NCBI GenBank assembly: GCA_011523395.1
Contig: WTGW01000084.1
Coordinates: 1-49,307, forward strand
Reading direction: 5' to 3'
DNA from: Acidimicrobiia bacterium
GTDB taxonomy: Bacteria; Actinomycetota; Acidimicrobiia; Spongiisociales; Spongiisociaceae
Length of the DNA stretch: 49,307 bases
Below are positions 35,569-37,752 of this stretch, one piece after another (positions within the stretch are counted from its first letter, which is position 1; each line of letters opens with the position of its first letter). Below the pieces are notes generated by a model. It was not told the origin of the DNA, ran no database searches, and worked only from the letters and a program-made list of their open reading frames with translations. The position numbers and the translations under genes are program-made.

Positions 35569-35785
35569 GGGGTCCTCAGGGGATTAGCCGGCCGGTTCTC
35601 TCGGGTGGTGCTAGGCCGGAGCGACCGTTGCCGTTCCGCGCATCTCGACACCGGTTCTCATCCTAGCCCGCGGGGCTTCGGCCCTTCCCGGGCGCCTTCT
35701 CAACGCCGAGCGGGCGGTACGCCCGGCCGATCCGGGCGTGCATGACCCACCGATTTCCCGCTGGTGTCAATTTGTGTAAGAATGG

Positions 35786-35814
35786 TGTCGTCGAGTGGGA
35801 GGAAGTGGTAGACT
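35786..35814 (+). promoter_or_regulatory. Candidate MraZ operator in the mraZ promoter
   Basis: Three pentamers in 10-bp phase, TGTCG, TGGGA and TGGTA, separated by TCGAG and GGAAG, resemble the TGGGN repeats bound by MraZ. They run into TAGACT (35809-35814), a possible -10 box. The same stretch forms an imperfect dyad, TGGGAG...AAGT with ACTT...CTCCCA. Binding would block the promoter, consistent with autorepression known from E. coli. Confidence 0.45.
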
Positions 35815-35863
35815 TCGACTCCCAGTCCTCTGATCGACAGCGGACGGTACTACGAGCGGAGCG

Positions 35864-36313
35864 ATGAAGGAACGGCGCCAGGAGTTTCTAGGCGAGTTGT
35901 CGCGGAAAGTCGACGGCAAGGGTCGCGTGGTGCTGCCGGCCGAATACCGCGATCTGCTTGACGGCGACTTCTACGTGACCAGGGGTCGAGACCGCTGCCT
36001 GTACGTGTTTCCGTGGGAGGTGTGGCAGAAGAGAAAGAGAGCACTCGGGGAGCTCGACGAGGCCAGTGCCGCGGGTCGGGCCGAGGTCAGGGCCTTCTTC
36101 TCGGGCGCCACCCGGCCCGAGCTGGACTCGGCCGGTCGGGTACAGCTCTCGATGCGGTTGCGCGAGTATGCCGGGCTCTCACAGGACGTGATCTTCGTAG
36201 GCGCGGGCGAGTACGCAGAGATATGGGCCGCGGAGGCGTGGGCCCGCTACCAGCCATCGGCCATGGCGGCCTATTCCGGAGGACAGGAGGAATCACCCCA
36301 GATCGACGACTGA
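35864..36313 (+). CDS. mraZ: MraZ transcriptional regulator of the dcw cluster
   Basis: 149 residues. Two AbrB-like SpoVT domains: KVDGKGRVVLPAEYRDLL near residue 12 and ELDSAGRVQLSMRLREYAGL near residue 90, each with the DxxGR core. It is the first gene of the dcw cluster and probably represses it. A GGAGCG lies about five bases before the ATG. Confidence 0.94.
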   Translation: MKERRQEFLGELSRKVDGKGRVVLPAEYRDLLDGDFYVTRGRDRCLYVFPWEVWQKRKRALGELDEASAAGRAEVRAFFSGATRPELDSAGRVQLSMRLREYAGLSQDVIFVGAGEYAEIWAAEAWARYQPSAMAAYSGGQEESPQIDD

Positions 36314-36347
36314 CACGAGACAACCCCCACCGGCACGATGACCTGCT

Positions 36348-36433
36348 CATTGCCAGCCCTCCGGACACCCATTGGATTGTCCCTACTCCGCCCGCAGTCC
36401 CTTAGGTAAGAAAGCATCGGAGGGCTGGCAATG
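36348..36433 (+). promoter_or_regulatory. Long inverted repeat masking the rsmH start
   Basis: CATTGCCAGCCCTCCG (36348-36363) is the exact reverse complement of CGGAGGGCTGGCAATG (36418-36433). The 3' arm contains the GGAGGG ribosome binding site and ends on the rsmH ATG, so in mRNA the 16-bp stem (54-base loop) would hide both. The 5' arm starts 35 bases after the mraZ stop. This could be a translational switch or terminator-like element; no U-run follows. Confidence 0.6.
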
Positions 36434-37366
36434 GGTCAGGAACCAGGAAAGAAGCCGGTGAGCGGTAGGCCGTTCCATGTACCCGTAATGCTGGAGGAGG
36501 TTGTGAGCTTGTTCTCGCCCATAAAGGATGGGGTGATCGTCGATGCGACCCTCGGCGGAGGCGGTCACACGGCTGCTCTTCTCGCCAGGCTCGACGACTC
36601 GGTCAGCATCCTCGGCATCGATCGCGATCCTGCCGCCGTCGACCGCATGTTCGAGCACAGCCGGCTCAGGCTCGTAGTGGGCAACTTCGGACAACTGGAC
36701 CGGATCCTGGCGAGCCAGGGTCTGGACGAGATAGCGGGAGTCCTGCTCGATCTCGGTGTCTCGAGCCATCAACTCGACGAGGGCGGGCGTGGCTTCTCGT
36801 ACCGCCATGAGGGTCCGCTCGACATGCGAATGGGTCCGGATGCCGCTCGCACAGCCCATGAGATCGTCAATGAGGCCTCTCCGGCCGAGCTCGGGAGGAT
36901 CATCCGCTCGCTGGGAGAGGAGCGTTTCGCCAGGCGTATCGCAGCGGCAATCGTCGAGCATCGGCCCATCGAGACGACCGCCCGGCTGGCGGAGGTGGTC
37001 CGGCGAGCCATCCCCGCAGCCACCCGGCGATCGGGCGGCCATCCGGCGCGCCGGACCTTCCAGGCGGTGCGGATGGCCGTGAACGAGGAGTTGGGCGCAC
37101 TGTCAGCAGGGCTGGACTCCGGTATCGAAGCACTCCGCCCGGGGGGTCGATGCGTGGCGATTGCCTATCACTCGCTCGAGGATCGGATCGTCAAGCGCCG
37201 GTTCCGGCGGGGGGAGGGCCGGGAACCCGGCCCGGTGCTTCCTGTCGCCCCGCCGGTCGAGTTGACGGCTCTAGCGCGCCGAGCCATCAAGCCCGGTGAG
37301 GCAGAGGTGCTCCGCAATCCGAGGGCGCGGAGCGCCCGTCTCCGCGCGGTGGAGAAGGTGGCGTGA
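36431..37366 (+). CDS. rsmH: 16S rRNA (cytosine1402-N4)-methyltransferase
   Basis: 311 residues. HVPVMLEEVVSLFSP at the start, VDATLGGGGHTAALLARL for the SAM site, GVLLDLGVSSHQLDEGGRGFSYRHEGPLDMRM for the conserved active region, and AYHSLEDRIVKRRFR at the C-terminus are all RsmH hallmarks. It methylates C1402 in the ribosomal P site. Its start is inside the long inverted repeat described separately; the ATG at 36431 is fixed by GGAGGG. Confidence 0.95.
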   Translation: MGQEPGKKPVSGRPFHVPVMLEEVVSLFSPIKDGVIVDATLGGGGHTAALLARLDDSVSILGIDRDPAAVDRMFEHSRLRLVVGNFGQLDRILASQGLDEIAGVLLDLGVSSHQLDEGGRGFSYRHEGPLDMRMGPDAARTAHEIVNEASPAELGRIIRSLGEERFARRIAAAIVEHRPIETTARLAEVVRRAIPAATRRSGGHPARRTFQAVRMAVNEELGALSAGLDSGIEALRPGGRCVAIAYHSLEDRIVKRRFRRGEGREPGPVLPVAPPVELTALARRAIKPGEAEVLRNPRARSARLRAVEKVA

Positions 37367-37752
37367 CCGCGCGCCGGCATCCGGTCGCTGCACCCGCTCC
37401 GGCGGGTCTCCGGGTCCTGTCCGGGGGAGGAGCGACGTGGTGGCGCCCGCTCACCTGGGTCATCTACACGGTGGTGGCGGTGGCGGCGTTCCTGGCGTTC
37501 ATCTTCCTGCGGACCGCGGTCGACGAGGTGATGTACGACATCAGCAATACGCAGGCGCAGATACAGGTGGAGCTGGAGCGTAAGGCGCACCTGGAGGAGG
37601 AGAAGAGAGCGCTCCAGTCTCCGTGGGAGATCGTGCCGATCGCAGAGAGAATGCTCGGAATGGTGCTACCCGAAGACGTGATCCCGGTGTCCGCGGCAGA
37701 GACTGCTCCGATCGAAGACAGCGGAGCCTCGACCCGGATCGGCGAAGGCTGA
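37363..37752 (+). CDS. ftsL: FtsL-like division protein
   Basis: 129 residues from a GTG overlapping the rsmH stop (GTGA). A cytoplasmic, Pro/Ala/Arg-rich N-terminus of 45 residues, one transmembrane helix (WVIYTVVAVAAFLAFIFL), then a coiled coil (NTQAQIQVELERKAHLEEEKRALQSPWEI) give the FtsL/DivIC plan. In the divisome it forms a complex with the DivIC and FtsQ type proteins and activates FtsW-FtsI. Sequence conservation is poor in this family, so position between rsmH and ftsI is key evidence. Confidence 0.8.
   Translation: MTARRHPVAAPAPAGLRVLSGGGATWWRPLTWVIYTVVAVAAFLAFIFLRTAVDEVMYDISNTQAQIQVELERKAHLEEEKRALQSPWEIVPIAERMLGMVLPEDVIPVSAAETAPIEDSGASTRIGEG

Follow-up and report, generated by a model that had tools for sequence, protein, structure and literature searches.

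Introduction

Autogenous leaders that mimic rRNA precede ribosomal-protein genes, as in the S8, S15, L1 and L20 types. Among 16S rRNA methyltransferases, KsgA is said to regulate its own translation, reportedly described by van Gemen et al. in 1989, and we know of no conserved RNA element of the form described below for ksgA. In very many bacteria, the cluster of division and cell-wall genes is headed by the gene of another such enzyme, rsmH (mraW), and to our knowledge the presence of this ribosome-modifying gene in the division cluster has no explanation. RsmH acts on C1402 of 16S rRNA, and the E. coli enzyme takes 30S subunits as its substrate and leaves protein-free 16S rRNA unmethylated (PMC5053481). 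A literature search found no report of rsmH/mraW autoregulation by its leader.

The mraW RNA motif (RF01746; Weinberg et al. 2010) was described in Actinomycetales (PMC2864571) and has been reported in Corynebacterium transcriptomes (PMC3890552, PMC5784534); no experimental account of its function was found in a literature search. Herein, we describe an RNA element of Acidimicrobiia that, like the mraW RNA, lies upstream of rsmH/mraW and after mraZ in Actinomycetota. It may also share the architecture of the mraW RNA, in which a hairpin with a C-rich, conserved loop tops a long stem. The two occur in different classes of bacteria and differ in the conserved loop, which is ACUUCCCC in the mraW RNA and ACUCCGCCC in the Acidimicrobiia element; at the mraW RNA loci compared, moreover, the rsmH start was not obviously within the stem, unlike in the element described here. 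The ribosomal-protein leaders share with this element that they precede the gene of an rRNA-binding protein, resemble its rRNA site and overlap the translation start, but the product of rsmH is an rRNA methyltransferase, and the candidate mimic is a short loop rather than a whole rRNA fold. KsgA resembles the RsmH proposed here in being a 16S rRNA methyltransferase that would repress its own translation, although another enzyme and another mRNA are concerned.

Results and discussion

The mraZ-rsmH locus and its inverted repeat

To judge from the named records with its closest RsmH relatives, the window, i.e., the whole stretch of 49,307 nucleotides that was analysed, is a contig of a metagenome-assembled genome from Acidimicrobiia. 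It contains the following features at this locus, all on the plus strand.

35864-36313, plus strand: mraZ, first gene of the dcw cluster (Pfam PF02381, 92 bits)
36342-36364, plus strand: 5' arm of the outer stem, perfect core 36348-36363 (repeat, fold, covariation)
36367-36371, plus strand: 5' side of the middle helix, ACCAA type, one mismatch in the window (pair counts in alignment A4)
36374-36380, plus strand: 5' side of the apical helix, GGAUUGU (fold, covariation)
36381-36393, plus strand: apical loop CCCUACUCCGCCC, 13 nt, core near-invariant (fold, loop comparison)
36394-36400, plus strand: 3' side of the apical helix, GCAGUCC (fold, covariation)
36403-36407, plus strand: 3' side of the middle helix, UAGGU (pair counts in alignment A4)
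36417-36439, plus strand: 3' arm of the outer stem, holding GGAGGG and the ATG, perfect core 36418-36433 (repeat, fold, covariation)
36431-37366, plus strand: rsmH (mraW), 16S rRNA m4C1402 methyltransferase, its ATG inside the stem (Pfam PF01795, 320 bits; frames)
37363-37752, plus strand: ftsL-position gene, FtsL by position only (sequence)

The product of the ftsL-position gene had no Pfam match. Since the start of this gene overlaps the rsmH stop (GTGA, 37363-37366), translational coupling of the two genes is plausible. An in-frame GTG at 36458 is a second possible start of rsmH in the window. Upstream of mraZ, at 35783-35810, lie the words TGGTG, TGGGA and TGGTA, the latter two spaced by 5 nt, which we take to resemble MraZ-binding repeats.

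A sequence-only reading of this DNA had described a perfect 16-bp inverted repeat between mraZ and rsmH, its 5' arm just after mraZ and its 3' arm enclosing GGAGGG and the ATG of rsmH. The repeat search returned exactly this arrangement: two arms of 16 nt (36348-36363 and 36418-36433), 100% complementary and separated by 54 nt, of which the first begins 34 nt past the mraZ stop and the second contains GGAGGG at 36419-36424 and the ATG at 36431-36433. No other perfect inverted repeat of at least 14 bp with a gap of up to 120 was present in the 49-kb window, for which Markov-1 simulations gave an expectation of 0.03 perfect 16-mers and 0.3 perfect 14-mers. The reading had also called such a match improbable by chance; the likelihood of the repeat alone in a window of this size is about 3%. 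With G-U and flanking pairs, the outer stem reaches a length of about 23 bp, interrupted by one bulged base (36342-36364 with 36417-36439). It was present in the minimum free energy fold of the isolated region (-52.5 kcal/mol, z = -4.5), and none of the shuffled sequences folded equally well.

The stem is under selection

Covariation between the arms in Acidimicrobiia relatives was assessed in alignment A4, which comprises 36 diverse sequences, and the control was the same structure with partners slid by 1-3 columns. Standard pairs filled 91.6% of the pair cells as compared with 31-52% in the slid controls. Changes on both sides with pairing kept were seen in 22 of the 34 pairs of the full structure (9-15 in the slid controls), and doubly changed cells numbered 117, against 23-34 in slid and 37 in shuffled alignments; these pair counts control relatedness only partly. 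Four of the five pairs of the middle helix (helix 2) had changed on both sides, and RNAalifold predicted 20 outer pairs on A4, 15 of them with double changes. Among 73 distinct sense sequences, nearly every outer pair was represented by several standard pair types, and seven consecutive core pairs were never broken. The arms, which according to the sequence-only reading should covary in relatives if the stem mattered, do so, and selection on the stem as a stem is well supported on comparative sequence grounds.

Position of the rsmH start codon

The claim that the stem hides the rsmH start was supported in most lineages, with limits in two sets of relatives. An AUG or GUG of the 3' arm was in frame with rsmH in 71 of the 77 sequences with a readable frame, and together with the selected stem this supports predicted occlusion of the start codon in most lineages. 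In five species of the window's own genus (L006-L010), however, a small length difference places the stem AUG out of the rsmH frame; there it begins a reading frame of 5-10 codons, and the UGA of this frame overlaps the rsmH start (GTGA or ATGA), whereas in the window species the stem AUG is fused in frame with rsmH. Given this overlap and the in-frame GTG of the window gene, occlusion in L006-L010 and in the window may act through coupling. The second exception is formed by distant families (L097, L099-L102), in which the stem is retained but rsmH starts downstream of it; L099 and L102 have a stem without AUG. The rsmH start lies outside the stem in members of the families f12, f10 and f9. 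The stem is thus also maintained in relatives in which it does not work by occluding the rsmH start directly. At the stem AUG of L096 begins an ORF of 45 codons, which stops a short distance upstream of the rsmH ATG.

Distribution of the element

In the space that separates mraZ from rsmH, the same element was found in the window and in each of the 29 nearest readable relatives, which belong to six families of one order, and both the stem and the position of the start codon were conserved among them. A covariance model (R1) built from these sequences matched 199 of 296 genomes of the class, including nearly all sampled genomes of the window's order, and the element was also found in many further families of the class. 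One R1-matched family has genomes of about 1 Mb, with loci of 31-35% GC. Nearly all genomes carried one sense copy, which was located at rsmH where checked; the second match per genome was generally an antisense match, in which R1 or R2 recognises this stem in mirror image. In the window's genome, a single copy of the loop 12-mer TACTCCGCCCGC is present.

R1 was run on 297 genomes sampled from the phylum and matched none outside the class, and model R2 gave weak matches outside it (E 0.006-0.9), of which the four inspected were not at rsmH; neither search found the element at rsmH outside the class. Class relatives that lack the element had, where examined, an mraZ stop that overlaps the rsmH start or lies close to it. 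These data are best explained by a cis-regulatory mRNA element that is specific to Acidimicrobiia and lies between the two genes.

The apical loop resembles the RsmH target in 16S rRNA

The most conserved part of the element is the apical hairpin (36374-36400), to which the sequence-only reading had given no attention. Its unpaired loop is (U)ACUCCGCCC. The loop core CCGCCC was invariant in all 36 sequences of A4, preceded by ACU in most, and it was retained in genomes of about 32% GC although both arms had changed to other pairs there. Variation in the loop was located at the equivalent of A1398 and next to the core (L103, L105, L106). The invariance of the apical loop points to a specific ligand. 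Among the class sequences compared, the loop CUCCACCCGC of L207, with CCACCC, was the only exception to CCGCCC.

Positions 1396-1405 of 16S rRNA, where RsmH methylates C1402, read ACACCGCCCG, the same bases as the loop core; CCGCCC at 36388-36393 corresponds to 16S 1399-1404, and C36391 takes the place of C1402. A loop profile from 21 representatives was scored against the 16S and 23S rRNAs of relatives. In the first scan, the RsmH site ranked first over columns -3 to +6, with 14.4 of 17.5 as compared with 7.8 for the next site, and it was not ranked first in the wider windows (-12 to +13, -6 to +7 and -2 to +11); the bare 6-mer is also present once in 23S. The second scan, with a flat background and the complete 16S and 23S of one relative (G011), placed the RsmH site at rank 1 of about 4,600 positions in all five windows, and the ten-base core (-3 to +6) scored 15.8 of 18.9 there versus 6.2 at the best position elsewhere. 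Permutation of columns with composition kept gave p values of 0.002-0.03 (0.01-0.03 for the longer windows). The likeness to 16S was spotted once the loop was already known, and these scores therefore count as support and not as proof. With statistics of moderate strength, they suggest that the loop imitates 16S 1396-1405, the RsmH substrate around C1402.

Local pairing of the loop was considered and rejected, as was a pseudoknot, because a conserved complement was not found nearby: GGGYGG was missing within 150 nt in 28 of 30 loci of the order, and in six AT-rich loci it was found nowhere in 1.3 kb. A partner in trans is thus likelier than a pseudoknot.

A model for autoregulation by RsmH, and its alternatives

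We propose that RsmH binds a mimic of its own rRNA target and so holds the start-codon stem closed, which would make this an autoregulatory mRNA element; we put the probability of this reading at about one half. The comparisons support well that the transcript folds into the long stem, which pairs the ribosome binding site and the start codon, the middle helix and the apical hairpin, and exposes the nearly invariant loop ACUCCGCCC, the putative mimic of 16S 1396-1405. RsmH in excess over its 30S substrate would bind the loop in its own mRNA and stabilise the closed stem, with less initiation at rsmH and less translation of the coupled genes as the outcome. When immature 30S subunits are plentiful, they would titrate RsmH away, and initiating ribosomes could open the stem. 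Such a loop would amount to autogenous feedback as known for ribosomal proteins, here with an rRNA methyltransferase. A more specific version, which we regard as tentative and slightly less probable than not, is that RsmH recognises and perhaps methylates a 16S decoy in its own mRNA, with C36391 as the counterpart of C1402; the element would then sense how much RsmH there is relative to unmodified 30S subunits and tie rsmH and the coupled division genes to ribosome maturation. METTL15, the human homologue of RsmH, binds isolated h44 RNA fragments at about 1-2 μM, and it binds polyA too (PMC10828496). Considering this polyA binding and the need of E. coli RsmH for 30S subunits, the short loop alone may not confer specificity.

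If the proposal is true, there is a direct link between ribosome maturation and the division and cell-wall cluster, made by the enzyme's own rRNA target placed before rsmH, and rRNA mimicry extends from ribosomal proteins to an rRNA methyltransferase. Work on the mraW RNA of Actinomycetales could start from the same idea.

The conservation of stem and loop requires only some ligand, and the element could also regulate rsmH translation in cis with a loop that binds RsmI, an sRNA, a ribosomal protein, an assembly factor or a small ligand instead of RsmH. The likeness to 16S would then be coincidental or belong to another binder of the decoding site, a view with which an unpaired loop without a local partner is compatible, as is the fact that other factors too contact 16S 1399-1404. 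However, the downstream gene encodes the very enzyme whose target resembles the loop, the RsmH site took first rank among the rRNA positions scanned, and known riboswitch models gave no match in the Rfam search, so that we consider a different ligand rather unlikely. We find it still less likely that the structure is static, a long stem for RNase III processing or mRNA stability that constitutively lowers rsmH initiation and uncouples rsmH from mraZ. Its length of more than 20 bp does make it a plausible RNase III substrate, and the tight packing or overlap of mraZ and rsmH in relatives without the element fits such an uncoupling role, but this reading leaves unexplained why the loop is better conserved than the stem, AT-rich genomes included.

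A transcription attenuator or intrinsic terminator, which a strong GC-rich hairpin between two genes might suggest, is very improbable: the hairpin is without a U-tract, and its 3' arm carries a conserved start codon and passes into the coding region. Neither a terminator-like site nor a sigma-70 promoter was found in 35700-36700. The chance figure for the repeat alone, low as it is, would still leave some room for a functionless chance or mobile inverted repeat, but the position is shared by almost all genomes that were sampled in the order and by many class families, and the arms show compensatory changes; this covariation refutes the notion, to which we give next to no weight.

Comparison with known RNA families

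Searches with the families of Rfam release 15 returned only sub-threshold chance matches to the window element; one of these, a minus-strand hairpin match to mir-4773 with 18 bits against a cut-off of 100, was dismissed as chance. RF01746 remained without a match in the window and in 13 relatives when the thresholds were relaxed, and no class member was among its matches in a 120-genome phylum sample. The RNA element between the two genes, for which Rfam release 15 has no model, is judged to be real and under selection.

When R2 was run unfiltered over seven mraW loci, weak right-strand matches were obtained at four of the seven mraW places, with 8.8-15.9 bits and E values of 0.005-0.009. In the best of these, ACUUCCCCC was aligned under ACUCCGCCC, with the loops superposed. 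The mraW RNA and the Acidimicrobiia element may thus be distant cousins; membership in the same family is not claimed. The mraW loop ACUUCCCC was also considered as a copy of the C1402 site, which was not supported, as the profile scan gave no match to that site.

Two further features were noted in the relatives. On the 3' side of the internal loop, GUGCCAGC is present in most families of the order and in the AT-rich family (e.g., L016, L022 and L087) and absent from the window; it duplicates part of the 5' arm and could pair with the 3' arm as a local alternative hairpin. The conserved stretch of the 16S 530 loop begins with the same word, possibly by chance. Distant families (L097-L102 and L204-L207) carry an extra hairpin on the 3' side of the element, of the GGGGAGACAUCCC type in several.
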